From positions 1,178,001 to 1,242,000 of the forward strand of contig NZ_AP014548.1 of NCBI RefSeq assembly GCF_000831385.1: DNA of 64,000 bases, read 5' to 3'. Source of the stretch: Nonlabens marinus S1-08 (GTDB lineage: Bacteria > Bacteroidota > Bacteroidia > Flavobacteriales > Flavobacteriaceae). Position 1 is the stretch's first letter. Every line of letters starts with the position of its first letter. Shown in pieces: positions 2-60,669 of this stretch. The notes beneath the pieces are model-generated. The model made no database searches. It saw nothing but the letters and a program-made list of their open reading frames with translations, and was not told where the DNA came from. The position numbers and the translations under genes are program-made.

Positions 2-2272
2 CAAACAGACCAGCGCAATTTTGAGATTGAGCAATTTAAAAATCAAGCGGTGAATGTAAATGCAACTTACAATTATGCATTTCCAGAATTTAAAGTAGAG
101 CCCTTTAAAGAGGCGGACACTACCCTTGCGGGAGATTATTTGAAGTTTATTCGAGACATCAATTTTAACCTGTTGCCTAATAATTTTACAGCTAGCGGGT
201 CTATAGTTAGACAATTCAATAAGCAAACTTTCCGTGATTTACAGTTGGACACTAATCCTGTAGATTTAGATGGTGACGGGATTCCTGACGCCCAAAACAT
301 TGCCATTGCACCGCTTACAAATCGCAACTTTACTTTAGGGAATAGATACGCTATTACATGGGACTTGACCCAGTCGCTCAATTTGAACATTTCTGCAAAC
401 AACGACCGGATTGTACGCAGTTACATAGATAATGAGACGAACACTATTGATGAGAATTATACGCTCTGGAGCAATTTCTTGGATGAAGGAATTCCAGATT
501 CCCATACACAACAGTTTAAAGCGACTTATCAAGTACCCTTCAGTAAGCTGCCTTTTCTCGCTTTCGCGAAAGCGACATATACCTACACCGCAGACTTTAA
601 TTGGCAACGTAATTCCCAGCAATTCCAGCAATTAGAAGGAATTCCGAATTTAGGAAACAGTGTGCAAAACGCCAACACGCATCGTATTAATGGGAATTTA
701 GATCTAGACAAGTTGTACAAATACGTAGGTTTAGAAAAGAAAAAATTTGGAGCTGCAGCACGCAAGGATGCCCAGCAAAGATCAAGAAGTACTTCTAGAA
801 GTAGACTTCCTAGAGCAAATCAAGAAAGCGGCAATCTTGCTGAGGTAGAAAAGAAAGAGGACATCAATATTCCTAAAGAAAATTTTGCCAATAAGACATA
901 CAACACTGTAGTCGGAGTTTTAACATCAATAAAGCGGGCCACAATCAATTACGAGGAAAATAATGGGACATATCTTCCTGGATATACCCCTAGCGTTGGG
1001 TTTATAGGAACATTTAGACCTACAACAGCTTTTACATTTGGTAGTCAGGCAGAGGTTCGTGATTTTGCAGCCCGACAAGGTTGGTTGACATTGTACCAAG
1101 ATTTTAACGAACAATACTTTGAAACTGAACGTAAGGAACTTTCCGTGAATTTCAATGTGGATCTACTTCCTGACCTTAAGATTGATATCATTACTAATAG
1201 AGAATATCAAGAAACCTTTACTGAAAACTATAGAATAAATCCAGATGATTTGTCTTACCAGTCACTGACTCCGCAGACTTTTGGAAACTTCAGTATTTCA
1301 ACGATCATGATAGGGACAGCTTTTAATCCAAGTTCCATCGATAATTCTCAGGTGTTCAATAATTTTAGAACGTATCGTCTGGATGTAGCAAATCGACTGG
1401 CTCGTGACTTCTATGGAGGTAATAATTTCTCCAGGGACGAGAACGGCTACCCTAATGGATTCAGTCGTAACAGTCAAACAGTATTACTTCCCGCCTTTTT
1501 GGCCGCCTATGAAGGTCGCAATCCAGACGACCAGCGCAAGAGTGCCTTCAAAGATATTCCACTTCCTAACTGGGATGTGAAGTATACAGGTTTGATGAAA
1601 TTAAAATGGTTCCAGAAGCGATTCAAACGATTCTCTTTACAGCATGGCTATCGATCTGCCTACACTATTAATAGGTTCCAAACTAATTTAGACTTTGTAG
1701 ATGGAAATGGTGGATTGAGTTACGAGCAACAAAATAGACAGGCCTTGAATCAAAACGGTGACTTTAAACCTCAAGACTTATTCTTTAATATCTATTTAGA
1801 AGAACGATTTACACCATTAATTAAAGTGGATTTTGAAATGAAAAACTCGCTATCCATTTCAGCAGAGTTGAAGAAAGATCGTGCTGTATCGTTGAGTTTT
1901 GACAATAATCTATTAGCTGAAATTAGCGGTAATGAATTGGTATTAGGAGTAGGATACAGAATTAAAGATGTACCATTCCGTACTAACTTTAGTGGGCGCA
2001 GCCAGGTAATAAAGAGCGATTTGAACTTGAGACTTGATGGGTCAGTGAGAGATAATGTGACAATTATTCGATATCTAGATCTAGAAAATAGTCAGGCTAC
2101 GGCTGGACAAACGATTTATGGTGCAAAGTTCACGGCAGAGTATGCGTTGAGTAGAGCATTCCAAGCCCTGTTTTACTACGATCATTCGTTCTCTAAATTT
2201 GCCATTTCTACCGCGTTCCCACAAACGACGATTCGCAGTGGAGTTACATTAAGATATACCTTTGGTAATTAA
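2..2272 (+). CDS. sprA: Cell-surface translocon protein SprA, C-terminal part (5' truncated)
   Basis: The reading frame is open from base 2, so the window begins inside this gene and only the last 756 residues are present. SprA is the very large outer-membrane beta-barrel translocon of the type IX secretion system, needed for gliding and export of sorting-tail proteins. The C-terminus, with FYYDHSFSKFAISTAFPQ and a final beta strand ending RYTFGN, matches what I recall of SprA, and gcvH directly downstream is the usual neighbour. A Ser/Arg-rich low-complexity stretch lies near residues 245-275 of this fragment. A palindrome copy encodes LAFAKA near residue 188. An internal GTG at 50 is not the real start. 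Confidence 0.93.
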   Translation, partial: QTDQRNFEIEQFKNQAVNVNATYNYAFPEFKVEPFKEADTTLAGDYLKFIRDINFNLLPNNFTASGSIVRQFNKQTFRDLQLDTNPVDLDGDGIPDAQNIAIAPLTNRNFTLGNRYAITWDLTQSLNLNISANNDRIVRSYIDNETNTIDENYTLWSNFLDEGIPDSHTQQFKATYQVPFSKLPFLAFAKATYTYTADFNWQRNSQQFQQLEGIPNLGNSVQNANTHRINGNLDLDKLYKYVGLEKKKFGAAARKDAQQRSRSTSRSRLPRANQESGNLAEVEKKEDINIPKENFANKTYNTVVGVLTSIKRATINYEENNGTYLPGYTPSVGFIGTFRPTTAFTFGSQAEVRDFAARQGWLTLYQDFNEQYFETERKELSVNFNVDLLPDLKIDIITNREYQETFTENYRINPDDLSYQSLTPQTFGNFSISTIMIGTAFNPSSIDNSQVFNNFRTYRLDVANRLARDFYGGNNFSRDENGYPNGFSRNSQTVLLPAFLAAYEGRNPDDQRKSAFKDIPLPNWDVKYTGLMKLKWFQKRFKRFSLQHGYRSAYTINRFQTNLDFVDGNGGLSYEQQNRQALNQNGDFKPQDLFFNIYLEERFTPLIKVDFEMKNSLSISAELKKDRAVSLSFDNNLLAEISGNELVLGVGYRIKDVPFRTNFSGRSQVIKSDLNLRLDGSVRDNVTIIRYLDLENSQATAGQTIYGAKFTAEYALSRAFQALFYYDHSFSKFAISTAFPQTTIRSGVTLRYTFGN
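558..575. repeat. Palindromic element copy, 18 bp, in sprA
   Basis: Perfect 18-bp palindrome around the core GCTTTCGCGAAAGC, read in the AFAKA phase of sprA. The reading frame is undisturbed. Confidence 0.95.
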
Positions 2273-2333
2273 TGTCGCAAGGCTTAACAAATCCATCGTT
2301 ATTTTCTAAATTTACCAGCTTTTAAAACACACT

Positions 2334-2711
2334 ATGAATATTCCTGCAGAATTAAAATATACTAAGGATCACGAATGGATCAAAATTGAAGGTGATACCG
2401 CCACAGTAGGTATTACTGACTTTGCTCAAGGCGAGTTGGGTGATATCGTTTATGTTGAGGTAGAAACGGTGGACGAAACATTAGATCAAGAAGAAGTTTT
2501 TGGAACCGTGGAAGCTGTAAAAACAGTTTCTGACTTGTTTTTACCATTGGCAGGTGAAATCATCGAGTTCAATGAAAAGCTGGAGGACGAACCAGAATTG
2601 GTGAATTCAGACCCTTATGGTGATGGCTGGATGATCAAGATCAAATTCAGTGACGCCTCTCAAATAGATGGTTTGTTATCAGCAGATGCTTATAAGGATT
2701 TGGTAGCTTAA
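2334..2711 (+). CDS. gcvH: Glycine cleavage system H protein
   Basis: A cytoplasmic carrier of 125 residues, the usual length. Its lipoyl-lysine arm shuttles the aminomethyl group between the P, T and L proteins of glycine cleavage. The start [14 protein letters not shown] and the lipoylation site [11 protein letters not shown], with Lys63 as the lipoylated residue, are standard. It lies 61 bases after sprA on the same strand, and the next gene begins directly after its stop codon (TAA-ATG), so co-transcription is likely. The sprA-gcvH pairing is common in Bacteroidota although no functional link is obvious. Confidence 0.97.
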
Positions 2712-4928: not shown

Positions 4929-7034
4929 ATGAGATTGAAGTTCCTCGCCATGATGGCGCTATTCAGTAGTTTACTCAGTGCTGCCCAGACTGATGTAGAA
5001 CAATACCCCCAATTCCCTGCTTGTGCTGGAGCTAACGATGCCGTATTGAGATCTTGTTTCTATGATCAACTTTATGCAGAGTTGTATCAGGCCTATCAAC
5101 AGCCTAAAAGTATGGAAACCAGTACTCAAGCGACACTAAGATTTGAGGTAAATAAAGAAGGTCAATTTATACCCGTTTTAGTAGATGCTCGAACTACAGA
5201 TATTAAAACCGCTTTAAATACAGCGCTGGATCAATTGCCTGTAATTGAACCAGCTACCTATTATGGTTCCCCCACGTTCATGCAATTTATTGTGAGCTTT
5301 CAGGTACCTATGGTGGAAGGTGGTTCATTCATGCAACTGGCTGAAAGCGAAGAGATAACTTCTAATTCAACATCAAATAATGAAATAGAGCTCGCTTTCG
5401 CGAAAGCGAACGACGATTACAGCACTATTGCATCACAGGATTACAACAGTCAAGAGTTGAGGTCGAACGCCATCATTCCATTCTCTTACCAGAGATACCA
5501 CCGTTATGAAGCAGCCATGAATAGAGTAGGAAGCAATGCGCACACTGCAGTAAAGCCTTATACTTTTGATTATGTGGGAGAATATTTTGATCTAGAAAAA
5601 GAGCGCTCCAACTTATTGAAGGATGCGAGTAGTTGGTTTGGGCGCAAGTTGTGGAACGAACACTTTTTTGAAGTCGCAGGTAAGGATTATTGGTTTGTGA
5701 TTGATCCAGGCGTTGACCTGCAGTTGGGAAAAGATACTGGCGAGAACGTGAATACGTTTAATAATACGCGACTGGTTGCGGTTAATGGAGGTATAGGTAA
5801 GCAATTGACCTTTGGCGCTACCATTCAAGAATCTCAAGGAAGGTTCGCGGAATACTTCAACCGAGAAATAACCCAGCGAGCTCCAGATGGAGGCAATCCA
5901 GGAGTCGTCCCTGGACGTGGTATTGCAGAGGATGGAGGTGAGAATATTTATGATTATCCAGTAGCCACAGGTTATATCAATTACAAGCCCAGTAAATACT
6001 TCAATTTACAACTAGGGCATGGACAACATTTTATAGGTGATGGGTACCGGTCGCTTGTATTGAGTGACAATTCCCAGCCGTTTCCTTATGTAAAGGTGAA
6101 CGCAAAATTTTGGAAGCTAGATTATACAGTACTTTATACGTCACTTAGAGATGTAAGATCTGAGGTTACTGCAGATGACTCCTTCCGTACTAAATATATG
6201 GCGCATCATTATTTAAGCTGGAACGCAACAAAACGTTTGAGTCTTGGTTTTTTCGAGAGCGTTTTGTGGCAAGATGACAACGGCCGTGGGTTTGATTTCA
6301 ATTATTTAAACCCAGTGATTTTTTACCAGACGATAGAGTTAGAGACAGGTTCTCGCGGCGGGAATGCTCTTTTAGGAATTACCGCTAAGTATAAAATGCG
6401 TGATAATGTAACGGCCTATGGACAATTGGTATTAGACGAATTCTCAAGTAGTTCAGTAATTAGTGGAGATGGGAGTTATCAGAATAAAAGCGCCTACCAA
6501 TTAGGGGTAAAGTATCAAAATGCCTTAGGAGTACCTAACCTAATGCTACAAGCAGAATACAATAGAGTCCGGCCATATACTTACAGCCATAACACAGTGG
6601 TGTTGAATTATGGAAATACCAATCAAGCACTGGCGCATCCTTGGGGAGCGAGTTTTTATGAAGCCATTTTAATCGCGAGATACACTAAAGACCGTTGGTA
6701 TGGAATCGCTAAAGGTATCACAGGCAAGCGAGGTTTTGACATCCTTACCAATGGAGATACTGCCTATTATGGAGGGAATATTTATAGAACAGAGGACAAC
6801 CGCATAGCAGATAATGGTAATACCATAGCTCAAGGGAATACCGCACCGTTCTTTTATGGGGAATTAGAAGCGGGTTATCTGATCAACCCAGCCAGTAATT
6901 TAAAAATCTACGGACAATTCATTTACAGGAATATTTCTCCTGAGTTTGATAATGCCGTGGTTCAAGAGGCAACTACCACCTGGTTTAATTTTGGAATACG
7001 GACAGATCTCATGAATTGGGGATTTGATAGATAG
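4929..7034 (+). CDS. remB: Gliding motility protein RemB-like outer-membrane protein
   Basis: A 701-residue exported protein with a signal peptide ending near residue 19 (LLSAAQ). Residues about 24-135 resemble the TonB C-terminal domains of the two upstream genes: QYPQFPACAG and RSCFYDQLY keep the two-cysteine spacing, and TLRFEVNKEGQFIPV the beta strand. Residues about 180-700 look like an outer-membrane barrel of the RemB/Wzi type, with LQLGHGQHFIGDGYRSL, PYVKVNAKFWKLDYTVLY and many aromatic-ended strands. RemB in Flavobacterium johnsoniae contributes to gliding. A palindrome copy encodes LAFAKA at about residue 157, in the linker between the two modules. The family call is from memory of motifs. 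Confidence 0.8.
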   Translation: MRLKFLAMMALFSSLLSAAQTDVEQYPQFPACAGANDAVLRSCFYDQLYAELYQAYQQPKSMETSTQATLRFEVNKEGQFIPVLVDARTTDIKTALNTALDQLPVIEPATYYGSPTFMQFIVSFQVPMVEGGSFMQLAESEEITSNSTSNNEIELAFAKANDDYSTIASQDYNSQELRSNAIIPFSYQRYHRYEAAMNRVGSNAHTAVKPYTFDYVGEYFDLEKERSNLLKDASSWFGRKLWNEHFFEVAGKDYWFVIDPGVDLQLGKDTGENVNTFNNTRLVAVNGGIGKQLTFGATIQESQGRFAEYFNREITQRAPDGGNPGVVPGRGIAEDGGENIYDYPVATGYINYKPSKYFNLQLGHGQHFIGDGYRSLVLSDNSQPFPYVKVNAKFWKLDYTVLYTSLRDVRSEVTADDSFRTKYMAHHYLSWNATKRLSLGFFESVLWQDDNGRGFDFNYLNPVIFYQTIELETGSRGGNALLGITAKYKMRDNVTAYGQLVLDEFSSSSVISGDGSYQNKSAYQLGVKYQNALGVPNLMLQAEYNRVRPYTYSHNTVVLNYGNTNQALAHPWGASFYEAILIARYTKDRWYGIAKGITGKRGFDILTNGDTAYYGGNIYRTEDNRIADNGNTIAQGNTAPFFYGELEAGYLINPASNLKIYGQFIYRNISPEFDNAVVQEATTTWFNFGIRTDLMNWGFDR
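5392..5409. repeat. Palindromic element copy, 18 bp, in remB
   Basis: Perfect palindrome around GCTTTCGCGAAAGC in the AFAKA phase, placed in the linker between the TonB-like and barrel modules. Confidence 0.95.
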
Positions 7035-7799: not shown

Positions 7800-9160
7800 C
7801 GGTGCAGCGCGTTGTAGCCTAGATATTTTGTTTCGCTTTCGCGAAAGCGAATACCATAAGTCTCCAGCTCTTCTAGAATAGGTTGGTATACTTCCTTCAT
7901 AATAGGAATTTGTACCCCATAGGTTTTTATTTCCCCATTTAGAATGCGCAGTGCAGCCATTCCTACTGGCAACCCTACGGTTTTGGCCATTGCGGTTTGC
8001 TTGTCACCGTCGCCTAGACAGACCATGGTGCTGTCTATTTGTTTTTTCTCTCCGTTGACATCGTACCCAAATTTATGGTACATCACTATCATGTCCTTTT
8101 CACCAGGCTCTAAAGTCCATTTATCTTCGAGAATCTTTTGAAGTGCCTGTGCTGGAGTAGCATTTTTAATCCCGATCTTTTTCTCATCGTTAAATAAATC
8201 CAGTTCCAGAAGTTTGTTCCACATGATGTCATCTTGATCAATTCTTAACTCCAGACGCATTTTCAGCTCTACACTATCCGTAGGCGAGTAGGGAAGAAAG
8301 CTATTAACAAACTCTCTATAACTCATGTGTTCAGAATCGTCCATCTGGTAGGTGTCATCTGTCATTCCCAGTTGGACAAACATATTCCAGGCTTTACTAA
8401 AGCCTACCCTTCGCATCGTACCACGATATAGTGTCAGGACATTTTCTAGACCATAAACTTCCATGTATTTGAGGCTGTCTCTATTTGCCAGCGCTTCAAA
8501 CCTGCCATACCCTTCCACATCTAAAAATTCTGTCCTACGGAACAAACGGTGATAAGGGATGTATTTAAATTTTCCTTCTTGTATAAACTTTGCTGCACCA
8601 CCTTGGCCGGCGGTCACCACATTTCTAGGATTCCATGTAAATTTATAATTCCATAAGTTGTCATCATTTTCAGGAGCTACAAGCCCACCAGTAAAGGATT
8701 CAAAAAGAATGACTTTACCACCGTCCTCCCTTATACGGTCAATGATTTGCATGGCGCTCATGTGATCCACTCCTGGATCCACGCCTATCTCGTTCATAAA
8801 AACAAGTTGCTTTTCTTTTACCTGGGTATCTAGCTCTTGCATCTCAGGACTTACATAACTTGCGGTCACTAGGTTTTTTCCTAAAGAAACACAGTCTCTA
8901 GCAACTTCAATATGAAATCTTGCGGGCAACATTGAAATTACGATATCCGCTTTTTTAAGTTGCTCCACTCTATCCGCTTTATTAAAGACATCTAAAGTAA
9001 TCGCCTTTGCGTTAGGACGTCCATCACAAAGCCTCAATGCTGGAGCGATTTCTTTGTCGGCAATGGTAAGTTGTAATTTCTCTTCTTCTGATTTGTTTAG
9101 AAGGTAGTCTACTAATACTCCTGTAGATTTCCCAGCACCTATAATCAGTATGTGTCGCAT
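7796..9160 (-). CDS. Saccharopine dehydrogenase family protein
   Basis: A 454-residue cytoplasmic NAD(P)-dependent oxidoreductase. The chosen start, ATG 9160, gives MRHILIIGAGKSTGVLVDYL, with the Rossmann GxGxxxG-like loop at the very N-terminus; a longer frame to 9292 has an unlikely leader. The sequence MLPARFHIEVARDC and the long C-terminal catalytic/dimerisation domain fit saccharopine dehydrogenases, hence lysine metabolism. However, the family also contains enzymes of other specificity, and no partner lysine-ketoglutarate reductase is nearby. A -7-like box TACCTTGG lies on the minus strand at 9179-9186. A palindrome copy encodes RFRESE close to the C-terminus. Confidence 0.88.
   Translation of the reverse strand: MRHILIIGAGKSTGVLVDYLLNKSEEEKLQLTIADKEIAPALRLCDGRPNAKAITLDVFNKADRVEQLKKADIVISMLPARFHIEVARDCVSLGKNLVTASYVSPEMQELDTQVKEKQLVFMNEIGVDPGVDHMSAMQIIDRIREDGGKVILFESFTGGLVAPENDDNLWNYKFTWNPRNVVTAGQGGAAKFIQEGKFKYIPYHRLFRRTEFLDVEGYGRFEALANRDSLKYMEVYGLENVLTLYRGTMRRVGFSKAWNMFVQLGMTDDTYQMDDSEHMSYREFVNSFLPYSPTDSVELKMRLELRIDQDDIMWNKLLELDLFNDEKKIGIKNATPAQALQKILEDKWTLEPGEKDMIVMYHKFGYDVNGEKKQIDSTMVCLGDGDKQTAMAKTVGLPVGMAALRILNGEIKTYGVQIPIMKEVYQPILEELETYGIRFRESETKYLGYNALHR
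7832..7851. repeat. Palindromic element copy, 20 bp, at the 3' end of the saccharopine dehydrogenase gene
   Basis: Perfect 20-bp palindrome TTCGCTTTCGCGAAAGCGAA, read as RFRESE (minus-strand gene) about 12 residues before the stop codon. Confidence 0.95.
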
Positions 9161-9213
9161 GTGTGTCGTAATTTTAGTCCAAGGTAAAATTCTCTGAAAG
9201 ATAAATAGGTGAT

Positions 9214-11334: not shown

Positions 11335-11354
11335 TTCGCTTTCGCGAAAGCGAA
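11335..11354. repeat. Palindromic element copy, 20 bp, intergenic
   Basis: Perfect 20-bp palindrome between the pckA terminator and the hemD stop codon, six bases from hemD. It has no T tract of its own. Confidence 0.95.
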
Positions 11355-12860: not shown

Positions 12861-13592
12861 ATGGATAACACATTAGTCATTATTCCTACCTATAAGGAAA
12901 GCGAGAATATCACGTTGATGATAGATACTGTGCTGGGCGATTACCCAGACATTCATTTGTTAGTTGTGGATGACAATTCGCCGGATGGAACAGGTAATCA
13001 AGTGACTGAGAAGATGCAGGAGTATCCTGAGCGATTGTTTTTAGAAACACGCCTCAAAAAGCAAGGCCTGGGAACAGCGTACATCCATGGATTCAAATGG
13101 GCGCTTAAAAAGCAGTATGAGTACGTTTTTGAAATGGATGCTGATTTTTCACATAATCCTAAGGATATTCAACTTTTGTATGAGGCCTGCAGCCTCCATG
13201 GTGCAGATCTTGCTATAGGCAGTCGCTATGTGCGTGGTGTGAATGTCGTGAACTGGCCTATGTCTAGGGTATTGTTGTCCTACGTGGCTTCAAAATATGT
13301 GAGATTGATCACAAGGATGGATATCCACGATACCACCGCAGGTTTTAAATGTTATAGGGTATCGCTTTTGCGAAAGCTGGATCTGGACAAAATTAAGTTT
13401 GTAGGTTATGCGTTCCAGATAGAAATGAAGTTTAAAGCCTACTTATTGAAGGCCAAAATAATTGAAGTGCCTGTCATCTTTACTGATAGGTCTAGAGGAC
13501 AGTCTAAAATGAGTAGCGGTATTATAAATGAAGCCGTTACTGGAATATTGAGTATGAAATTGAAGAGCCTGTTCGGCAGGTTGGAGCTATGA
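12861..13592 (+). CDS. Polyprenol monophosphomannose synthase-like glycosyltransferase (GT2)
   Basis: A 243-residue soluble GT-A glycosyltransferase of the dolichyl/polyprenyl-phosphate mannose synthase type. ATG 12861 (MDNTLVIIPTYKESENI) is preferred over GTG 12852, which lies in the promoter box. Visible motifs are VVDDNSPDGTG, the metal-binding FEMDADFSHNP near residue 90, IGSRYVRG and FVGYAFQIEMKF. It lacks the C-terminal membrane domain of some homologues. It overlaps dihydroorotase by four bases (ATGA), and GT2-dihydroorotase-DUF4296 form an operon. A one-mismatch palindrome copy near residue 170 reads SLLRKL. Confidence 0.9.
   Translation: MDNTLVIIPTYKESENITLMIDTVLGDYPDIHLLVVDDNSPDGTGNQVTEKMQEYPERLFLETRLKKQGLGTAYIHGFKWALKKQYEYVFEMDADFSHNPKDIQLLYEACSLHGADLAIGSRYVRGVNVVNWPMSRVLLSYVASKYVRLITRMDIHDTTAGFKCYRVSLLRKLDLDKIKFVGYAFQIEMKFKAYLLKAKIIEVPVIFTDRSRGQSKMSSGIINEAVTGILSMKLKSLFGRLEL
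13364..13377. repeat. Degenerate palindromic element, one mismatch, in GT2 gene
   Basis: GCTTTTGCGAAAGC differs from the core by one base. It is read in the LSRKR phase as LLRKL, so it may be a decaying or nascent copy. Confidence 0.7.
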
Positions 13593-15348: not shown

Positions 15349-16346
15349 TTTCTTGATTGTAAATAATGATTGGCTACACGTTGTATTGTAACGTCTAGAG
15401 TTTGAAAACTGTAGTTTAGGCGATCAACCACTTTAGTGTTATTGTAATTTGTAGTTGAGGTATAGCTTGAAACCTGAGCCCTGCTCAAACCTTCAATTAT
15501 TCCTAAAGCCGCAGGTATTTTAGTGAATACATAAACGATATACAACATCCATTTTTTCAATAAAATCCTTGGTGGTTTCTTGTGTAGTGCGTTTGCAACT
15601 GCACTAAGTACCGATTTGAACTTCCTATTTTCACTTACAAGAATAAAACGCTCATTGTATGACTCAGATTTCATGAGTTTTTCCATGATTTTCACCACAT
15701 CCCTAACATCTACAAAACCCGAAGAGCCATTTGTATAAAATGGTTGCCGTTGATAGGTTTTTTCTATAAGTTGACCACTTCCCTCGCTATAATCTCCCTC
15801 ACCTATAATAACTCCAGGATTCACTATTACCACAGGCAAGCCTTCTTGCGAGGCGCGCCACACTTCCATTTCACCAGCATATTTTGAGATGCCATAGTCG
15901 GTATTCAAAGCGTCTGGATTAAAAAAATCCTCTTCAGTGACGGCATTATCTCCTATAGGATTCCCCAAAGCGGCGATACTACTGATATAACAAAATTTTT
16001 GAATTTTGAGAGCGATGCAAATATCGATCAAGTGTTGTGTGCCCAGCACGTTCACTCTTGTCATTTCCTCAAAGGATAGACCGCCTAATGCTGCAGCACA
16101 ATGATAAACGTGTGTCACGCCTTCCATAGCTAGTTCGAGACTTGGAACGTCTAAAATATCTGCTTGAATCCAATTGATCTCATCGACTAGTTCAGCGTCA
16201 CCTTTACGGTAGGAATCAAAAATGACTCTAGTTTTATTAATTGAATCTTCTGTCCTGTAAATAGCATTGATGGGTGTTTCGCTTTCGCGAAAGCGATATA
16301 ACAAATGGCCGCCTACCAGACCAGTTCCTCCTGTGACTAGAATCAT
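15345..16346 (-). CDS. NAD-dependent epimerase/dehydratase family protein
   Basis: A 333-residue extended short-chain dehydrogenase. ATG 16346 gives MILVTGGTGLVGGHLLYRF with the NAD-binding TGGTGLVG loop; the longer frame to 16403 would run through the promoter. The catalytic YGISKYAGE lies at about residue 155, with NPGVIIGEGDYSEGSGQL after it. The substrate cannot be assigned. The C-terminal part has a hydrophobic segment (about residues 258-275), hinting at membrane association. A palindrome copy encodes RFRESE directly after the nucleotide loop, at about residues 18-23. A -7 box lies just upstream. Confidence 0.88.
   Translation of the reverse strand: MILVTGGTGLVGGHLLYRFRESETPINAIYRTEDSINKTRVIFDSYRKGDAELVDEINWIQADILDVPSLELAMEGVTHVYHCAAALGGLSFEEMTRVNVLGTQHLIDICIALKIQKFCYISSIAALGNPIGDNAVTEEDFFNPDALNTDYGISKYAGEMEVWRASQEGLPVVIVNPGVIIGEGDYSEGSGQLIEKTYQRQPFYTNGSSGFVDVRDVVKIMEKLMKSESYNERFILVSENRKFKSVLSAVANALHKKPPRILLKKWMLYIVYVFTKIPAALGIIEGLSRAQVSSYTSTTNYNNTKVVDRLNYSFQTLDVTIQRVANHYLQSRN
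16279..16296. repeat. Palindromic element copy, 18 bp, in epimerase gene
   Basis: Perfect 18-bp palindrome read as RFRES near the N-terminus of the minus-strand epimerase, next to the Rossmann loop. Confidence 0.95.
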
Positions 16347-17913: not shown

Positions 17914-17935
17914 TTTCGCTTTCGCGAAAGCGAAA
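17914..17935. repeat. Palindromic element copy, 22 bp, intergenic (longest short form)
   Basis: A perfect 22-bp palindrome, the core with four extra paired bases on each side. It lies between the stop codons of two convergent genes. Confidence 0.95.
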
Positions 17936-39716: not shown

Positions 39717-41482
39717 AAGAAGTATTATCCATATATGAAGCGCGAATAGAGATGTTTTCGCTTTCGCGAAAGCGATACAACCACCAGTTACGCATCTCTG
39801 GAATTATTAGATTACTAGCATTTCTAGCAACTATCGCAGGAATTTATTTTTTCTGGAATTCTTGGCAAGCCGCGGTGGCAATTGCCATTGCGGGAATAGC
39901 CACATTTCTTATTCTAGTGGCCCGGCATGAGAATTTGAAACAAAAGCGCAACTATTATGAGGAGCTGCTGCGCATCAATGAACAAGAGATTGCCGTGGGC
40001 AATGGAGATTATGAAGACATGCCAGCAGGCAATGAGTTTGAGGAAGATGATCATGATTACAGTCGAGATATTGACCTTTTTGGGATCGGGTCTTTTTTTC
40101 AGTACTTAAATCGCACAGCACTCAAAGAAGGTAGACAGCAGTTGGCCAGCCATCTTACCGCTAATAAAATTATTGGAATTACAGCACGTCAAGAAGCCAT
40201 AGCTGAACTAGGCAAGATGCTGGATTTTAGGCAAGAGTATGAAGCGACTGCCAGACTGCTAGAGAATAACACAAGACCTACAGTCATTGTAGATTGGATC
40301 AAATCGTATAAGCCGTTTGTTCCATATATCTATTCATGGCTGTGTTATTTGCAGTTTGCTTTTTCTTTAATTACTGCTGTGTTGTATGGTATGGATGTGA
40401 TTGGTGGTTATTGGCTCGCAGGCGTCTTTTTCATTGGGTTACTGATTTCTGGGAGGTACGTTAAGCAATTGCTGATACTTCACAATTACATATCAGAATT
40501 AGAAGGGTTTTTTATCCAGTACGGTAAGCTTTTAGAGTTAATAGAAAAAACAGATTTTAAAGGAGTCGTTCTTCAAGGCTTGAAAGATCAAGTGATTACT
40601 ACAGGAAGAACGGCCTCTGGCCGTTTGCAGGATCTGGGAAAAGCTATAGTAAGACTGGATCAAGGTAGCAACATGCTGATGGGAATATTCGTAAACGCAT
40701 TCGGTTTGTGGAATTTGAAACAAACACATTCCATCGAAGTCTGGCTGAAAGAAAATAAGGAGTTCATCGCCCCATGGCTGGAAGCGGTTGCGCAAATTGA
40801 TGCCATGAATTCGCTAGGTAATTTTGCTTATAATCACCCCAATTACAGTTACCCTGAAATTAAAGAGGGCGATTTTCAATTAAAGGCGGCTCAAGTCATA
40901 CATCCACTATTAGATCCTGGAAAAGCCGTAGGGAATACTATAGATATTCATACAGGAGAATTTTTCATCATTACAGGAGCAAACATGGCGGGTAAGAGCA
41001 CCTTCTTACGAACTATTTCTATGTCTATAGTGATGGCAAATGTAGGTTTGCCCATCTGGGCGGAATCTATGGACTATGCGCCCATCAAATTAATCACGAG
41101 TATGCGCACCAGTGATAGTTTAAAAGATGATGAATCCTATTTTTTCAGTGAACTCAAGCGACTTAAGTTTATCGTGGATAAAATGGAACGAGAAAAATAC
41201 TTTATCGTGCTTGATGAAATTCTCAAAGGAACGAACAGCGTCGATAAAGCCAGCGGCTCTAGAAAGCTTATTGAAAAACTAACCCGGAAAAATGCTACCG
41301 GAATCATCGCCACTCACGACTTAAGCCTTACAGAGGTGGCTAATGAACATGAGCATATCTCTAACTACTATTTTGACGCACAAATCATCAATGATGAGTT
41401 GTTCTTTGACTACACTTTTAAGACAGGTGTGGCTACTAACATGAATGCGAGCTTCTTATTGAAGAAAATGGGGATTGTTTAA
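39713..41482 (+). CDS. Membrane-anchored MutS-family ATPase
   Basis: A 589-residue protein. The first 90 residues hold two hydrophobic segments (about residues 31-47 and 50-67) and another pair lies near residues 205-245, so it is probably membrane-bound. The C-terminal part (about residues 390-580) is the MutS ATPase domain: Walker A GANMAGKSTFLRT, signature SLKDDESYFFSELKRL and Walker B FIVLDEILKGTNSVDK. The mismatch-recognition and connector domains are missing, so it is not the repair MutS; the function is unknown. The start is TTG 39713 overlapping TGA. A palindrome copy encodes FSLSRKRYN at residues 15-23. Confidence 0.87.
   Translation: MKEVLSIYEARIEMFSLSRKRYNHQLRISGIIRLLAFLATIAGIYFFWNSWQAAVAIAIAGIATFLILVARHENLKQKRNYYEELLRINEQEIAVGNGDYEDMPAGNEFEEDDHDYSRDIDLFGIGSFFQYLNRTALKEGRQQLASHLTANKIIGITARQEAIAELGKMLDFRQEYEATARLLENNTRPTVIVDWIKSYKPFVPYIYSWLCYLQFAFSLITAVLYGMDVIGGYWLAGVFFIGLLISGRYVKQLLILHNYISELEGFFIQYGKLLELIEKTDFKGVVLQGLKDQVITTGRTASGRLQDLGKAIVRLDQGSNMLMGIFVNAFGLWNLKQTHSIEVWLKENKEFIAPWLEAVAQIDAMNSLGNFAYNHPNYSYPEIKEGDFQLKAAQVIHPLLDPGKAVGNTIDIHTGEFFIITGANMAGKSTFLRTISMSIVMANVGLPIWAESMDYAPIKLITSMRTSDSLKDDESYFFSELKRLKFIVDKMEREKYFIVLDEILKGTNSVDKASGSRKLIEKLTRKNATGIIATHDLSLTEVANEHEHISNYYFDAQIINDELFFDYTFKTGVATNMNASFLLKKMGIV
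39758..39775. repeat. Palindromic element copy, 18 bp, in MutS-family gene
   Basis: Perfect 18-bp palindrome in the LSRKR phase near the N-terminus. Confidence 0.95.
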
Positions 41483-42902: not shown

Positions 42903-43640
42903 CTAGGAATCTAGCTTTTTCAGCTCTGCTAGCAATTTTGGATCCTTATTGACCTTATAAGCATCTTTTAGGATACGCACTGCATCTGCCTCACGATCCA
43001 TTTTAGTAGCATAAAGGTTTGCCAGTTTCAAATAAGTGGTAGTGGAACCACCCACCTTTATCGCCTTTTTATAGGCAGACTCGGCATCTTGATATTCCTT
43101 GTCGTATTCTTCAATGTATCCAGTAGCGAGGTATCCATCTACAGGAGAAATTCTTTGCAACTGCCCAGCATAATCCCGTGCAGTAGAAAGTGAACCGCCT
43201 ATAATTCCTGGCAATTCAGTGTACAATTGAACTAATGCATGGCGTACTTCAATATGTTTTGAGTCTAACTCGGCTGCTTTTTTAAGGTGGAATTTGACAT
43301 CATCCAGCAAGCCTAGAGCTTTAAACTTAGAGGTGTTTTTTGCCCACATTCCCATAGCGCCGCCATAGAAAAAATGATAATCTGCATTTTGCTCATCAGT
43401 CTTCAAGAGTCTTTTGTATACTGCAGTAGCTTCTTCAAAGGCCTCTAACTTCCCATAGGTCTGTCCTGTAGCGCGCAATAATTTTGGGTTATTAGCATCG
43501 GCTTGCAACAACTCTTTGTAAATGGGTATGGCTGCTTTGTAATTGCCTTGTTGGTAGAGTTGTTCCGCTTTCGCGAAAGCGGACTGCGCATTCACTCCAC
43601 TACAAATAATAAGAGCAAGAATCAGTATTAATTTTTTCAT
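42903..43640 (-). CDS. Exported tetratricopeptide-repeat protein
   Basis: A 245-residue protein with a signal peptide (residues 1-18, ending GVNAQ). About five TPR-like helical hairpins follow, for example AEQLYQQGNYKAAIPIYKEL, PKLLRATGQTYGKLEAFEEA and YLATGYIEEYDKEYQDAESA. The first repeat is partly written by a palindrome copy that encodes SAFAKAEQ right after the signal cleavage site. The function is unknown; TPRs imply protein binding in the periplasm. A -7 box lies four bases upstream of the ATG. Confidence 0.85.
   Translation of the reverse strand: MKKLILILALIICSGVNAQSAFAKAEQLYQQGNYKAAIPIYKELLQADANNPKLLRATGQTYGKLEAFEEATAVYKRLLKTDEQNADYHFFYGGAMGMWAKNTSKFKALGLLDDVKFHLKKAAELDSKHIEVRHALVQLYTELPGIIGGSLSTARDYAGQLQRISPVDGYLATGYIEEYDKEYQDAESAYKKAIKVGGSTTTYLKLANLYATKMDREADAVRILKDAYKVNKDPKLLAELKKLDS
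43565..43582. repeat. Palindromic element copy, 18 bp, in TPR gene
   Basis: A perfect 18-bp palindrome with CCG/CGG ends, in the AFAKA phase, at the mature N-terminus of the exported protein. Confidence 0.95.
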
Positions 43641-46700: not shown

Positions 46701-49700
46701 TCGTAAACTTTTATACCAGTACAGATGCAGTTTATATCTACCTCACAACTTATGACAGCAAGCGGATTCTAGAATCTAAGTGGGTCTATTTGCCAAACGG
46801 TAAAACCACTATGAAATTTGGGATTGGTAAAGCACAAGGGGAAGCCTTGAAGTTTCAATACCATACTTATAAATACAATGACTTTAGATCTGGAAGTTTT
46901 GAAGCCAAAAAATCAGTGAAACCCAAGCAGCAGTTTGCGATCACCACACAGACCTTTCGCAATAAGTTATATCCTGGCGAGAATGAAGAGTGGTCGTTTA
47001 CCATAAAGGATCAAGACAGCACTGGTATGCAAGCAGAGGTTCTTGCCAGCATGTACGACAAGAGTCTAGACGAGTTCGCGAGCAGTTCGTGGAGTGGATT
47101 TAATTTCTACAGCCGCAACTATGACTTCTATCCATTCACGGTAAACAACTTGGCTGGAGCGACTACTGTCAATATTTCTGCTGAATTGCCTTATGAATCT
47201 ACGCCTTCTTTCTCGTTAGATAAAGAGCAGTTGAACCTATATGGCTTAACATTCCAGAATTTTCAAAACCGTTATCGATATTATAAGAATACGCTTTCGC
47301 GAAAGCTGTCTCCCGTCAAACCTATTGCAGGAAAAATTACTGGTAAGGTTACTGATCAATCTGGCGAACCTATACTGGGAGCTACGGTGATTATTCAAGG
47401 CACAGATATTTCAGCTACAACTGGTTTTGACGGAGTATATATAATAACGGCTTCGGCAGGAGATAAATTAGTGTTCAGCTGGTACTCAGGAAACGAACCG
47501 GCAGTGCGAAAGGTAGATGAAGAGGTAATTAATGTAAGTTTAAGCACCAACTTGGAAGCTGTGTTGGTGACCAGGTATCCTGGTTCTACAAAGAGGAATA
47601 TTTCTGCCTCTGTCACAACTGATGAAATAATTCAAAACAGACCTACTGCTGCTTTCCTTCAAACCCTAGAAGGTCAAGTTGCAGGATTAAATGTTATTAG
47701 TGGTCAACCCGGTCCTGATCCTATGGTGGAAATAAGAGGTATGGCTTCTGATTCTAAAGATGGAGAGATATTGATAATTGTTGACGGAATTCCAATGACT
47801 GAGGCAGAATTTCGTGCACTTGACCCAAATAATATTCAAGAAGTTGCCGTCCTTAAAGATGCAAATGCCACCTCTATTTATGGTGACCGTGGCGCTAACG
47901 GTGTGATCATTGTCAGTACTAAAAAAGGAGTCAGCGCAGCAGATATTGTCAAAGAAGCTATGGCTTTACAAAACGTTCCAGTCCGCAAAAACCTCAACGA
48001 GACTGCGTTCTTCCTCCCAGAACTCTACACCGACGAGCTAGGAAACCTAAAATTCAGCTTTACCTCGCCAGAAGCCTTGACCCAATGGAAATTTAGATTG
48101 TTTGCGCATAACAAACAGGCACAAACCGCACAATATGAAGGTTTGGTACAAACCCAAAAGGAGCTGAGTCTGGTTCCTAATCCGCCACGATTCTTGCGGG
48201 AAACAGATACGATTCGGTTTTCTACCAAAGTGGCAAACCTTTCCGGTAAACCCTTGACGGGAAAGGCAACATTGCAATTGTTCGACGCGCTAACGATGCA
48301 ACCCATTGATCAGAAGTTGGGCAATGATAAAAATATCCAAGCCTTTGAAGTAGCCACTGGCGGGAATGCTTCTGTGAATTGGACGTTTACTGTTCCTGTC
48401 GGTACACAAGCGGTGACCTATCGCGTGCTGGCAACATCGGGAAACTTCTCTGATGGCGAGGAAAACACGTTACCGGTGTTGACCAATAGGATGTTGGTGA
48501 CTGAAAGTCGTGCACTTTGGGTGCGTGCGGGAGAAACTTCTAGCGTGACGATGGATAAGTTGGCGAACACCACATCAGATTCTAGAACCAACCACCAGCT
48601 GACTTTTGAGTACACTTCAAATCCATCGTGGTATGCGATCCAATCACTTCCTTATTTAATGGAGTTTGAACATGAGTGCAGCGAGCAAACTTTTTCCAGA
48701 TATTATGCAAACTCAGTTGCCGCACATATCTTAAATAGTAATCCGCGAGTCAAGGAAGTTTTTGAAAGTTGGGCAGCAAATGATGTTCCAGCCAGCAATT
48801 TAGAAAAAAACGAAGAGCTAAAATCCATAATTATTTCGCACACACCATGGCTGCGCGACGCTAAATCAGAAGCCGAAAAGCAAAAGCGTCTAGCCACCTT
48901 ATTTGATCTTGCAAGAACTGCGAGAGAAAAGAAGAAAACACTGGCAAAACTGGAAGCCCAGCAACTGCCTAGCGGTGGTTTCCCATGGTTTGCCGGTGGC
49001 CGCATGAGCGATTATATCACGAGACACATCGCAACAGGAATGGGTCATTTGAACAGGCTGGACGTCAACGATGGCGACCGTCCACAAACCGATCGGATTT
49101 ATGAAAATGCTATAAGTGCCTTGGATAAAAACTGGGAAAAAAACTTCAATGAGCATTTAAAGAGAAACAAAACACTCGAGAACTACAACTATGGCGTGAG
49201 CTATTGGCATTACCAGTATGCTAGAAGTTTCAAGAAGGACAAAAACCTAAATGGAGTATTGAAGTCTGGTCGTGAGTTCGCTTTCGCGAAAGCGAAAACC
49301 AATTTCTCTTCCCAGCAGATCTACCAACAATTATTGATGTCATTGGGCTTGCAGCGTGCCGGTGAGGTTGCAACTGCACAGAAAATCGTGGAAGGATTAC
49401 GCCAAAGTGCGGTCAACAGCCGTGAAAACGGAATGTACTGGAAGGAAAACGTGACCGATTACAACTGGTATAGCAGCGATATCGAGACTCAGGCGCTGGC
49501 GATAGAAACTTTTAGCGAAGTAGGAAATAACGAAAAAAACGTAGAAGAATTGAAAGTCTGGCTACTGCAAAACAAGCGCACCAATCGCTGGAAATCTACA
49601 AAAGCCACAGCAGATGCGACCTATGCACTGCTATTGCAGGGTAACGAATGGCTGGATGTTCAGGAAAGCAATGTGATCAAATGGGGAAATAGACCCATTC

Positions 49701-52126: not shown

Positions 52127-52414
52127 TTAAATGCGTACGTCGCTCCAGTTGTCATTGCGGTCAAATACGACCTCAGCAAATGGACATAATGGATTGATTT
52201 TGTAATTGTTCGCTTTCGCGAAAGCGTAACTCTCCTCTACCATTTTTGCACCTATACCTTGTCCTTCATGTTCCGAATTCGTTTCTGTATGATCAATCGT
52301 CATCACCTTGCCATTCAGTGAATAGGTAAGTTCAGCAATGGTTTGATCTCCTTCTTTAAGGTAGAAAATTCCTCGCCTATCATTTTGCTTGTGGTGTATG
52401 GAGTCGGTGTTCAT
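52127..52414 (-). CDS. Small GNAT-type N-acetyltransferase (YjdJ-like)
   Basis: A 95-residue single-domain protein of the short GNAT group. ERRGIFY-like strands are followed by GKVMTIDHTETNSEHEGQGIGAKMVEESYAFAKANNYKI, with the QGIG acetyl-CoA loop, and NPLCPFAEVVF at the end. Short GNATs of this type have unknown acceptors. A palindrome copy writes SYAFAKANN in the helix after the loop. It lies two bases upstream of the next acetyltransferase and 27 bases downstream of pepE. Confidence 0.88.
   Translation of the reverse strand: MNTDSIHHKQNDRRGIFYLKEGDQTIAELTYSLNGKVMTIDHTETNSEHEGQGIGAKMVEESYAFAKANNYKINPLCPFAEVVFDRNDNWSDVRI
52211..52226. repeat. Palindromic element copy, 16 bp, in small GNAT gene
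   Basis: Perfect 16-bp palindrome in the AFAKA phase of the minus-strand gene. Confidence 0.95.
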
Positions 52415-54160: not shown

Positions 54161-54721
54161 ATGAAGAAAATACTATACCCTATCGTTTTATTGATGGGAA
54201 TAAGCACATTAGCTCATACAGTTCCTAAAGAATCTGTTTCTATAGAGCCATTTCGCTTTCACGAAAGCGAAATAAACCAATTTCATAAATACTATTTATC
54301 AGTCTCTAATGTAAGCTACAGCTCTAAAGCTAAGGCGTTACAAATGGTTTCTAGATATTTTATTGACGACCTAGAAGATGTGTTGAACGAGCGACTTGAT
54401 AAAAAATTGACGTTGGGAAATGCTGATGAGTTAGAAGAGTTAAAGCCTGTTTTAGATCGGTATTTTTCTAAAAGAATGGTCGTTTCCATAGATGGTAAAG
54501 CAACAACGCCTAAAATTCTAGGCGCAGAATATGACGCAGACCAAATCAAAATTTATATTGAAATTCCAGCAGCAACATCTCCAAAAACGGTTGAATTAAG
54601 CAATAAGGCACTGTTCGAATTATTCCCAGAGCAGAAAAATCTGACGCATTTTAAAATTAAAGAGGAACGCAAATCCATTTTAAATAGCGCTGATACACCT
54701 GTAGACCGAGCAAAGTTTTAA
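54161..54721 (+). CDS. DUF6702-like periplasmic protein
   Basis: A 186-residue exported protein. ATG 54161 (MKKILYPIVLLMGISTLAHT) supplies a signal peptide, while the frame could open at TTG 54134. HKYYLSVSNVSYSSKAKALQMVSRYFIDDLEDVL resembles DUF6702, and the neighbouring M1 peptidase supports that. The function is unknown. A one-mismatch palindrome copy encodes RFHESEI at about residues 31-37, shortly after the signal peptide. Confidence 0.75.
   Translation: MKKILYPIVLLMGISTLAHTVPKESVSIEPFRFHESEINQFHKYYLSVSNVSYSSKAKALQMVSRYFIDDLEDVLNERLDKKLTLGNADELEELKPVLDRYFSKRMVVSIDGKATTPKILGAEYDADQIKIYIEIPAATSPKTVELSNKALFELFPEQKNLTHFKIKEERKSILNSADTPVDRAKF
54251..54272. repeat. Degenerate palindromic element, 22 bp with one central mismatch, in DUF6702 gene
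   Basis: Arms TTTCGCTTTC and GAAAGCGAAA are intact. The central GC is AC, giving RFHES instead of RFRES. Confidence 0.85.
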
Positions 54722-58030: not shown

Positions 58031-58034
58031 CACC

Positions 58035-58888: not shown

Positions 58889-59518
58889 CCCATCACGAAC
58901 GGATAGTAACACTGTTTGTAGTCTAGAATCCTCCTTGAGTAGTCTGTTGTATTCCAGCAGCACCGGTGTTGAACTATCTTTTGGCTTGACATCTTCTACC
59001 ACCTTTCCATGCCACAAGACGTTGTCAGAAATAATTAAGGATCCAGATGTTACCTTTTCCATAATCTGGTGGAAATATGTGACGTAATTAGGCTTATCGG
59101 CATCAATGAAAACCAGGTCAAATGTTCCTTCCAGCTGCGGAATAATTTCTGTCGCATCACCATTTTTTTGATGTACAGTAATTTGATTTTTTCCGCTTTC
59201 GCGAAAGCGAGTTAAATAAGCAGCTGCAAAATCTTCTAGTTCTTCATTGATATCAATGGTTACTAATTCACTGCCGTCAGGCATACCTTCCATCAAACAA
59301 ATGGCAGAATACCCAGTAAACGTGCCTATTTCCAACACGCGCTTAGGAGCACGCAAGTGCGAGATCATACTCAACACCCGACCTTGATACGCGCCTGAAA
59401 GCATGATGGGTTGCAACACCTTCAAGTGTGTTTCCCGGGTCAGGTCTTTGAGAATCTGCGGTTCGTCCTGAGAATGGTTGACGATGTAATCGTCTAGATC
59501 TTTGGGTAAAAAAAACAT
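58865..59518 (-). CDS. O-methyltransferase, class I SAM-dependent
   Basis: A 217-residue catechol/caffeoyl-CoA O-methyltransferase-type enzyme. RVLEIGTFTGYSAICLMEG is the SAM loop (about residues 60-78). VFIDADKPNYVTYF is the metal-binding motif (about residue 136), and LIISDNVLWHGKV follows. ATG 59518 (MFFLPKDLDDYIVNHS) matches the expected family start; ATG 59533 would add five residues. The start codon lies in the 3' arm of a 13-bp hairpin, and codons 2-4 are a run of eight T, so an apparent terminator overlaps the translation start. A palindrome copy encodes RFRESGK. Confidence 0.9.
   Translation of the reverse strand: MFFLPKDLDDYIVNHSQDEPQILKDLTRETHLKVLQPIMLSGAYQGRVLSMISHLRAPKRVLEIGTFTGYSAICLMEGMPDGSELVTIDINEELEDFAAAYLTRFRESGKNQITVHQKNGDATEIIPQLEGTFDLVFIDADKPNYVTYFHQIMEKVTSGSLIISDNVLWHGKVVEDVKPKDSSTPVLLEYNRLLKEDSRLQTVLLSVRDGLTLSRVL
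59194..59209. repeat. Palindromic element copy, 16 bp, in O-methyltransferase gene
   Basis: Perfect 16-bp palindrome in the RFRES phase of the minus-strand gene. Confidence 0.95.
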
Positions 59519-59544
59519 GGCTGCAAGATACATCTTGCAGCCAT
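59508..59544 (-). terminator. Hairpin plus T-run overlapping the O-methyltransferase start codon
   Basis: A perfect 13-bp inverted repeat, ATGGCTGCAAGAT / ATCTTGCAGCCAT, is followed on the minus strand by G and eight T. It has the form of an intrinsic terminator for the DUF4407 gene, but its 3' arm contains ATG 59518. Confidence 0.8.
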
Positions 59545-59568
59545 TTTTCTAAAAGAGTTAGAACAGGA

Positions 59569-60669
59569 CTATCCCAAAATTCCTTTTTGCTTTTCGTAAA
59601 ACGCATCAGCTTGTTTTTGCATAAGCTGGCGTGCGGTTTTCTTTTTGTAGTTGTACAGCTCTTCCTCATCTGCAATATCAGCATAAACGCGGTTGTTCAG
59701 GTCGCGGTCTGTTTGTACCATGACGGTTTGCTGCTGTTTTTGCTGGGTTACCCATGACTTCACCAGGTCTTCACGCTCGGCTAGTTTAAAATCGTACTCA
59801 CCTTTTGGAGCCAGTAGTTTTGCGATGATAGGGGAGGTTTCTATCGCTAGAAAAAGTAGAAAGATGAAAAACGAGATCAAGAACGGCAATTTGTTCAAAG
59901 CGCTAATGCGTGCCATGAGACCGTCAAAGTTGTCAATGATGGGTTGAGTTGCTAGTAACTGTGCTGCTTCACGTTCTTGAACTTCGGCAAGTTGGGTTTC
60001 TAATGCCAACATTTTCTCTGCGTTAGCAGGTTTTAGTGTAGTTAATTCGGCCAGTGCGGCGTCGTGTTTGTCGCGCTTCTCTTTGTAGACGGGCCCTTTG
60101 CCTAGACGGTTGGTTCCAGCGGTTCCTTCGGCTTCTGCGATGTAGGTGGCATAAAGGGCTTCAACTTCGGCCTCTTTGTTGGTAACCTCGTCTTTTAAGT
60201 CTTGTATCGCTTTCGCGAAAGCGGACTCCTCAGCAGCAAAAAGTAATCCTACTTGCTCTTGGTTCTCAAGAGTCATCTCGTTCTTCTCTGCAAGAAGGAC
60301 TCTATCAATTTCTTTCTCAAACATTTTAAGTTCGAGTGGTTTTGAAATCACAACGGCAATGATGATCGCTAGCAAAATACGCGGCGTCGCCTGCCAGATT
60401 TCGTTGATTTTCTTGTCACTTTTCTTAAGTGTAGAAACGATATAACGGTCCAGATTGAAAATCAACATTCCCCAAACAAGCCCAAAAGCAGCGGCTACCA
60501 GATAGCTGTCAAAAACAGTGTACAGCGCATAGGCCGATGCGAAAAAGGCCATAAGCGCGGTGAAGAAAACGGTGGCGCCTATACCTGCGTATTTGTTGCG
60601 CTCTCCAGCGCTACACTCGTCCAGCAGATCTGCATCTGCACCGCTACAAAAAATGAAAAATGATTGCAT
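59569..60669 (-). CDS. DUF4407 family membrane protein
   Basis: A 366-residue protein. Membrane helices lie near residues 31-50, 56-75 and 93-110. A long charged coiled-coil stretch (about residues 115-255) is followed by a fourth helix near residues 262-282 and a cytoplasmic-looking tail. FNLDRYIVSTLKKSDKK and FLLFLAIETSPIIAKLLAPKGEYD are features of DUF4407, of unknown function. A palindrome copy encodes ESAFAKAIQDL at the start of the coiled coil. A hairpin terminator lies beyond the stop. Confidence 0.88.
   Translation of the reverse strand: MQSFFIFCSGADADLLDECSAGERNKYAGIGATVFFTALMAFFASAYALYTVFDSYLVAAAFGLVWGMLIFNLDRYIVSTLKKSDKKINEIWQATPRILLAIIIAVVISKPLELKMFEKEIDRVLLAEKNEMTLENQEQVGLLFAAEESAFAKAIQDLKDEVTNKEAEVEALYATYIAEAEGTAGTNRLGKGPVYKEKRDKHDAALAELTTLKPANAEKMLALETQLAEVQEREAAQLLATQPIIDNFDGLMARISALNKLPFLISFFIFLLFLAIETSPIIAKLLAPKGEYDFKLAEREDLVKSWVTQQKQQQTVMVQTDRDLNNRVYADIADEEELYNYKKKTARQLMQKQADAFYEKQKGILG
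60208..60223. repeat. Palindromic element copy, 16 bp, in DUF4407 gene
   Basis: Perfect 16-bp palindrome in the AFAKA phase, within the coiled-coil region. Confidence 0.95.

Follow-up and report, generated by a model that had tools for sequence, protein, structure and literature searches.

A 14-bp palindrome iterated through Nonlabens genomes is the centre of a two-fold symmetric DNA element

HIP1, the highly iterated palindrome (HIP) described in 1995, still has, to our knowledge, no settled function, and the model that Elhai advanced for it in 2015 is a proposal. Uptake sequences are tolerated in proteins as few peptides, and the uptake signal sequence (USS) has an extended flank; Chi may confer an advantage on phage DNA; and sites of the parS, Noc and SlmA type are palindromes for dimeric chromosome proteins, far fewer in number and regional in placement. 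Here we describe a perfect palindrome of 14 bp, GCTTTCGCGAAAGC, found in a stretch of 64,000 nucleotides of the Nonlabens marinus S1-08 genome (NZ_AP014548.1, positions 1,178,001 to 1,242,000; hereafter, the window). Like HIP1 and the alternative HIPs of cyanobacteria, as PMC4390886 portrays them, it is clade-specific and grossly over-represented. It lies at the middle of a double-stranded DNA element with two-fold symmetry, about 74 bp long (~30+14+30), that is shared by related genera and some phages, and we tentatively propose that a DNA-binding machine reads this element to the benefit of the DNA that carries it. The exact 14-mer had no match in the full text of open-access PMC papers, and we found nothing on the palindrome in that literature.

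A dense and symmetric element

The window holds 18 exact copies of the core and three with one mismatch, as the preliminary description of this DNA had counted. Two mismatches occur at one position and three mismatches at two, making the presence of the core nearly all-or-none, and the other listed 14-mers at the window's perfect palindromes of at least 12 bp occur once each. The complete S1-08 genome (G000; one contig of 2,915,920 bases) has 728 exact copies, about 0.25 per kb, while the reversed control sequence has none. The palindrome is therefore over-represented genome-wide by orders of magnitude, as in the HIP class, and the genome-wide count that had been named as a check lies far above chance. 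Site statistics for G000 come from 864 kb of its 2.916 Mb (30%), in which 223, 27, 9, 36 and 233 sequence windows have 0, 1, 2, 3 and 4 mismatches to the core; the other samples comprise 400 kb of a second Nonlabens genome (G001), 200 kb each of Dokdonia sinensis (G196) and of G182, from the genus g161, and 222 kb of the metagenome-assembled genome (MAG) G433. Sites that have lost one outer GC of the core make up 15 of 25 two-mismatch sites in the Dokdonia and G182 samples (L315-L334) and 18 of 40 over all samples. The rarity of intermediate states implies sharp recognition, fast completion or block replacement.

Around the core, which is 14-20 bp long, lie some 30 nt on each side whose core-ward strand is poor in C and rich in T; a G/T-rich strand leads into the core from both sides. 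At 120 intergenic Nonlabens sites (90 from G000 and 30 from G001, partly orthologous), the C share of the core-ward strand is 1-17% between -4 and -30, where the intergenic background is 18%, and returns to normal at -31; T peaks near -3, -13 and -25 to -28, and A peaks at -5 and -17. Dokdonia, named Nonlabens loci, the G433 MAG, and the islands and phage records described below all show the same C depletion and the first two T peaks (-3 and -13). With identical sites counted once, the C fractions at 2-30 and 31-60 nt are 0.100 and 0.166 in Dokdonia (120 sites), 0.108 and 0.189 at named Nonlabens loci (44 sites), 0.141 and 0.187 in G433 (34 sites), and 0.113 and 0.217 in phage records (33 sites) that were hand-picked for a GC content below 0.45 and at least two copies, many of them mutually related. 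The peaks at -17 and -25 to -28 do not clearly recur outside G000 and G001, the fade-out in Dokdonia is more gradual, and the flank bias of G182 is weak. At position -2, T predominates in G000 and G001 and A in Dokdonia, and other Nonlabens have a mixture.

Beyond their composition the two flanks show no covariation, save weakly at -2 (z 3.0), and none of 40 two-mismatch sites is compensated; because of this, what is recognized would be double-stranded half-sites and not a hairpin. Intergenic sites have better flanks than coding sites and longer palindromes (mean 19.2 bp, n=90, versus 17.2 bp, n=133, in G000; Mann-Whitney p=1.3e-5), which bears out the longer arms noticed earlier in the intergenic copies of the window. 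Inside genes, the flank bias extends to synonymous positions. At 187 Nonlabens coding sites (133 in G000, 54 in G001), the C share at NNY codons within 18 nt is 25% on the left and 65% on the right, compared with 39-40% more than 60 nt away in those genes (z -7.5 and 12.0). Within 18 nt the third-position skew affects both codon classes on either side; at 19-36 nt three of the four classes still have it, and at 37-60 nt no class does. This synonymous bias, together with the conservation of all 14 bases and the use of three reading phases, sustains the proposal that selection is on the DNA and not on a peptide.

Distribution, conservation and origin by substitution

All 23 Nonlabens genomes searched carry the core in 288-857 copies, the lowest count belonging to a 78%-complete assembly. 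Among 395 Flavobacteriaceae genomes, the rich ones are Nonlabens (four genomes sampled), g161 (G182, 408 copies) and g175 (G196, 857 copies), and the remaining genomes hold 0-19; among 395 genomes of the order, members of the other 15 families hold 0-2. A scan of contigs from 84,980 species gave at least 111 core-bearing stretches and, among the matches listed (111), 74 are titled Dokdonia (45), Nonlabens (25) or Flavobacteria bacterium BBFL7 (4), which we presume to be a Nonlabens. The core occurs 369 times in the MAG Cytophagaceae bacterium SAT149 (G433) and 89 times in SAT51. SAT149 is probably a further lineage beyond Nonlabens and Dokdonia, because its proteins are 56% identical to those of Nonlabens (median of 33 hits), as against 62% for Dokdonia.

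Several low-copy genomes have their copies grouped in islands, and G204, G157 and G440 have one set of spacings (933, 10754 and 3991 bp) in common. The islands that were fetched carry efflux, outer-membrane factor, transporter, regulator, Fur-like and ATPase genes (L262-L273; in G000, L349:2321-9574), a content that, judged by eye, probably represents heavy-metal resistance. G000 has related genes whose products are 90-95% identical to those of some island genes. We read these site-bearing islands as transfers from rich hosts, and they look recent. Separately, three 20-kb stretches of G000 with few sites (L346, L348 and L354, with 3, 1 and 1) have a lower GC content (0.356-0.372), as expected for recently gained DNA; L341 is a counter-case, with two sites at normal GC content, and site density shows no significant trend with GC content over 43 bins.

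The core is also present in phage genes. At least 120 stretches in IMG/VR contain it, many of which are chance occurrences by GC content and flank score; among the matches listed, the ones that have proper flanks are AT-rich, often with more than one copy. An extended 16-mer has 41 stretches spread over 30 records, with two or more in 11 of them, whereas a rearranged 16-mer of the same composition occurs in 22 stretches in 22 records. Twenty phage proteins were scanned against PHROGs, several falling in no informative family; the products of genes with both a site and positive flank scores include a primase for DNA, head maturation proteases and an HNH endonuclease. Among 19 phage records chosen because the core matched, some of them near-copies of each other, 16 hold 2-7 copies and three hold one, and an integrase was found in 6 of 15 records, which may be fragments. 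The Nonlabens phages P12024S and P12024L, which we take to be lytic, have no copy of the core and no match with fewer than three mismatches; they share one recorded host, and are annotated with ERF and YqaJ-like recombination proteins, with no integrase among their annotations. As a separate observation, both phages lack GGCC (0 versus 42-45 expected) and have 11-12 copies of TTTGCAAA where about 2.8 are expected.

Sites are strongly conserved between the two Nonlabens genomes. A 400-kb stretch of G000 has 108 sites, 53 of which align to G001; 48 of these are identical over all 14 bases, where flank identity is 73% and 4.8% of random aligned 14-mers are identical. Protein alignment of coding sites gave identity in 37 of 40 and 38 of 42 comparable cases (from 63 and 54 sites), and alignment of flanking DNA gave exact matches at 12 of 19 and 12 of 14 comparable intergenic sites (from 45 and 30). 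In the window, the copies at 38463, 39760 and 37190 are intact in 18 of 19 other Nonlabens genomes, 5 of 5 genomes and 6 of 10 other Nonlabens genomes with a spanning alignment, respectively.

In the 400-kb G000 sample, 45 of 108 sites are intergenic although 90.5% of bases lie in called open reading frames (ORFs), and density is 0.84-1.44 per kb in gaps (tandem 1.33, convergent 1.44, divergent 0.84) versus 0.174 in genes. ORF calls were mechanical (at least 80 aa, longest first, with the first ATG, GTG or TTG as start), so N-termini may run too long. Spacing is even in G000, with four pairs closer than 1 kb against 25.3 expected and a coefficient of variation (CV) of 0.60, which none of 5000 simulations matched; short pairs are likewise rare in G001, G196 and G182. 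Even spacing and intergenic bias, two features of DNA-uptake sequences, are thus both present here, the former weaker by CV in G001 and the latter weaker in G182, where the intergenic preference is slight (5/34). In G000, the first 30 residues of ORFs hold 24 coding sites where 12.6 are expected (p=0.0016); G001 and G196 have this excess as well, G182 does not, and there is no excess at C-termini. Several of these N-terminal sites in the three genomes with the excess lie in signal-peptide-like starts.

Comparison across genera indicates that sites arise by substitution. We used best tblastn hits of at least 40% identity that span the site, with orthology presumed. The site is absent from all 11 presumed orthologues in the core DNA of low-copy genera (L355-L374), and because 10 of the 11 align without a nearby gap, the sites evidently overwrote existing sequence and were not inserted into it, in agreement with the preliminary description. 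In only one of the 11 is nearly the same peptide encoded without the palindrome (AFAKM for AFAKA, L370), a pattern that had been set against selection on the DNA. Matches in the transferred islands (L262-L274), kept apart from this set, include several that do carry the site. Against Dokdonia, 19 sites gave 4 at the same position (with one mismatch tolerated), 2 within 60 nt, and 13 without a site, 7 of these 13 gap-free; against G182, 6 sites gave 1, 1 and 4. The genera thus share the motif but mostly not its positions. Between G000 and G001, four coding sites that are not shared differ at 6-11 of the 14 bases and align with at most one gapped residue.

The sites of the window are collected in Table 1. 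The preliminary description had found the right sites, at positions that were off by 0-4 bases. It had called 17 copies intragenic; 14 of the 18 exact copies lie in called ORFs and four are intergenic, and the earlier tally evidently included mismatched copies. The same holds for the reading phases: its seven AFAKA copies stand, while its six RFRES and four LSRKR copies become four and three (LSRK) among the exact ones. The 6.5-kb gene does have two copies, as reported. The window under-represents the intergenic preference, given that about 40% of copies in the G000 sample (90/223) lie outside ORFs.

Table 1. Copies of the palindrome in the window, with their surroundings
Feature	Position	Location	Phase or palindrome
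Exact core	560..573	in ORF 50-2272 (+)	AFAKA phase
Exact core	5394..5407	in ORF 4929-7034 (+)	AFAKA phase
Exact core	7835..7848	C-terminal end of saccharopine dehydrogenase-like ORF 7796-9292 (-)	RFRES phase
Exact core	11338..11351	intergenic, convergent ORFs	perfect palindrome 24 bp
One-mismatch copy	13364..13377		
Exact core	16281..16294	NAD-dependent epimerase-like ORF 15345-16403 (-)	RFRES phase
Exact core	17918..17931	intergenic, convergent ORFs	perfect palindrome 22 bp
Exact core	20938..20951	intergenic, divergent ORFs	perfect palindrome 20 bp
Exact core	24254..24267	Methyltransf_4 (TrmB-type) ORF 23930-24601 (+)	AFAKA phase
Exact core	28584..28597	intergenic, divergent ORFs	perfect palindrome 20 bp
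One-mismatch copy	33700..33713		
Exact core	37190..37203	radical SAM/HemN-like ORF 36753-37898 (+)	LSRKR phase
Exact core	38463..38476	cyclase-family ORF 37895-38719 (+)	RFRES phase
Exact core	39760..39773	MutS domain V ORF 39713-41482 (+)	LSRKR phase
Exact core	43567..43580	TPR ORF 42903-43640 (-), near N-terminus	AFAKA phase
Exact core	47293..47306	6.5-kb ORF 43754-50314 (+)	LSRK phase
Exact core, second in the ORF	49280..49293	6.5-kb ORF 43754-50314 (+)	AFAKA phase
Exact core	52212..52225	doubtful 95-aa ORF 52127-52414 (-); may be intergenic	
One-mismatch copy	54255..54268		
Exact core	59195..59208	O-methyltransferase ORF 58865-59533 (-)	RFRES phase
Exact core	60209..60222	ORF 59569-60669 (-)	AFAKA phase

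What may read the element, and to whose benefit

The explanation we prefer, as a whole the best available but still short of an even chance, is that a symmetric (dimeric or paired) DNA-binding machine reads the element. Such a machine would be common to Nonlabens, Dokdonia, g161 and one further lineage, and one site per ~4 kb would suffice for it. Because phage replication and head-protease genes carry flanked sites, and because sites overwrite coding sequence, the benefit would go to the DNA segment that carries the site, as a transmission drive or a self-DNA signal, and would not be the host's alone. Among mechanisms the likeliest, though less certain, may be biased uptake and recombination, by analogy with uptake signal sequences: site-bearing DNA would enter or recombine better, and point mutation would build up sites in places where the protein can bear them, between genes and near N-termini. 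We rank uptake first because a drive best explains the overwritten coding sequence. More speculatively, the element could be a symmetric 74-bp self-DNA signal common to hosts and phages, which would make it, in Bacteroidota, the first uptake or recombination signal to be palindromic, with an undescribed dimeric reader and drive by overwriting.

Several observations sit uneasily with this explanation. No reader protein or receptor was found. The uptake sequences described in PMC1939737 are not palindromes, and the mismatch distribution is far sharper here (223 perfect, 27 one-mismatch and 9 two-mismatch sites in 864 kb) than for the Actinobacillus uptake 10-mer, for which that source gives 438 perfect and 947 one-mismatch copies. 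Intergenic sites look less well conserved than coding ones, and evenness of spacing by CV falls short of significance in G001 (p=0.36) and G182 (p=0.08). Flank bias, intergenic preference and N-terminal excess are all weak or absent in G182. As for the phages, site-bearing genes could equally mean an intracellular benefit, and the terminase large subunit and portal genes of one record (GC content 0.48) carry the core despite poor flank scores (-1.4 and -9.1).

An intracellular site for recombination, protection or topology ranks close behind uptake, and we regard it as a serious if somewhat improbable candidate. The element would then be a bidirectional Chi-like signal, or a site at which a topoisomerase or nucleoid protein wraps ~74 bp every few kb. 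Even spacing agrees with such a role, as do the absence of any trend of site density with distance from parS (rho -0.12, p 0.44; 43 bins), the G/T-rich strand that leads into the core from both sides, and the division among phages between genes that carry the core and the ERF/YqaJ-annotated Nonlabens phages that carry none, although the latter are only two and come from a single recorded host. The positions of the T peaks (-3, -13 and -25 to -28) and of the A peaks (-5 and -17) give a hint of helical phasing; however, period analysis gave no single helical period (A+T 12.25, C 9.25, T 3), and in Dokdonia neither the outermost T peaks nor the -17 peak can be seen. The Chi sites known so far are short and non-palindromic. 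It also seems hard to see why coding sequence should be overwritten for one of ~700 redundant architectural sites.

The role of a segregation site, raised in the preliminary description, is contradicted in its parS/ParB form, and parS was rejected as an identity for the palindrome. Each of 20 genomes has one ParB of ~300 aa, and parS-like pairs ~1.9 kb apart occur separately in all 8 carriers searched and in 12 of 14 genomes overall (in G000 at 853236 and 855129), the pairing and not the number being what distinguishes them from a reversed control with 0-4 hits per genome at two mismatches, while the palindrome has no trend around the chromosome.

A by-product of DNA methylation is a distinctly less probable account. 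In Elhai's model for HIP, as outlined in PMC4390886, methylation and mismatch repair generate the sites; here, a methyltransferase would act at the TCGCGA or CGCG centre and biased repair would perfect near-sites. The class of iterated palindrome and the sharp distribution with few one-off sites are what this predicts, but a 14-bp core with 30-nt arms far exceeds such a recognition site. PF01555 has no match in the carriers G010 and G196 and PF00145 none in G021 and G182, leaving no methyltransferase of these two families common to the 8 carriers; PF02086, PF02384 and PF07669 were not searched.

A selfish micro-element or inserted repeat, of the kind of the Rickettsia palindromic element (RPE) named in the preliminary description, the repetitive extragenic palindrome (REP) or the miniature inverted-repeat transposable element, is very improbable and largely refuted. 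Copy number is high, site-bearing islands have moved between genera, and pairs of sites with long shared flanks are in excess (132 versus 36 expected for at least 12 bases, 22 versus 4.4 for 14). Such pairs are nevertheless few among all pairs of the 223 sites, and shared flanks are partly expected from codon phase and duplicated genes, which may also explain what could otherwise be taken for templated copying between sites. The gap-free alignment of 10 of 11 site-free matches leaves no insertion footprint of the REP, bacterial interspersed mosaic element or RPE type (an associated transposase was not searched for), and Nonlabens and Dokdonia mostly have their sites at different positions (4/19 the same).

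An RNA-level or transcriptional role, as terminator, hairpin or regulator site, is the least credible of all: for all the perfect inverted repeat and the intergenic enrichment, the flanks are not complementary beyond composition (except for the weak signal at -2), the lack of compensation at two-mismatch sites (0/40 compensated) speaks against an intrinsic terminator, convergent gaps are not clearly preferred in the 400-kb G000 sample, 133 of 223 copies lie inside called ORFs, and Rfam at gathering thresholds has no match in the window.

Two other repeats came up along the way. TTGGCCAA, considered as a second iterated palindrome in G192 and G166, was rejected, having no flank pattern and looking like codon usage. 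A short tandem-like repeat, CGGAAGACGGAA, is present in six copies (L358-L360 and L262, G090 sample).

The element among known iterated sequences

Three described kinds of site share some of these properties. With the USS of Pasteurellaceae and the DNA uptake sequence (DUS) of Neisseriaceae, as PMC1939737 presents them, the palindrome has in common hundreds of copies or more, even spacing and a greater share of non-coding copies than expected; it differs in that its core is palindromic and not asymmetric, and its one-mismatch copies are relatively rarer. Its density is similar to that of Chi (GCTGGTGG type), for which the same source counts 1008 in the 4.64 Mb of E. coli K-12, yet Chi is short, asymmetric and read as a single strand, and the 14-bp core is part of a symmetric double-strand element. 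The 18-nt palindrome of Caldithrix abyssi is, in the account of PMC5317091, likewise a near-palindromic repeat of obscure role that prefers intergenic DNA, but its 38 exact copies lie outside credible genes and have a strand preference. From parS the element is set apart by the separate presence of parS-like pairs in its carriers.

The closest kind is the cyanobacterial HIP, a likeness that the preliminary description had already drawn, here with features resembling those of uptake signals. The palindrome is of the highly iterated HIP kind with a new architecture. It belongs to another phylum, Bacteroidota, and its sequence is neither GCGATCGC nor one of the named alternatives; it is 14 bp long where HIPs are mostly 8, and occurs at ~0.25 per kb where PMC4390886 gives 1-2 per kb for HIP. 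It has 30-nt composition arms on each side, it is carried by phage genes, and two methyltransferase families are not common to its carriers. The core can serve as a marker of DNA that has lived in carrier hosts. Related genera that have the motif at mostly different positions, and phages with and without the core, make the purpose of an iterated palindrome directly testable, in what amounts to a longer and sharper analogue of HIP1 in marine flavobacteria, with cultured members and a measurable extent.

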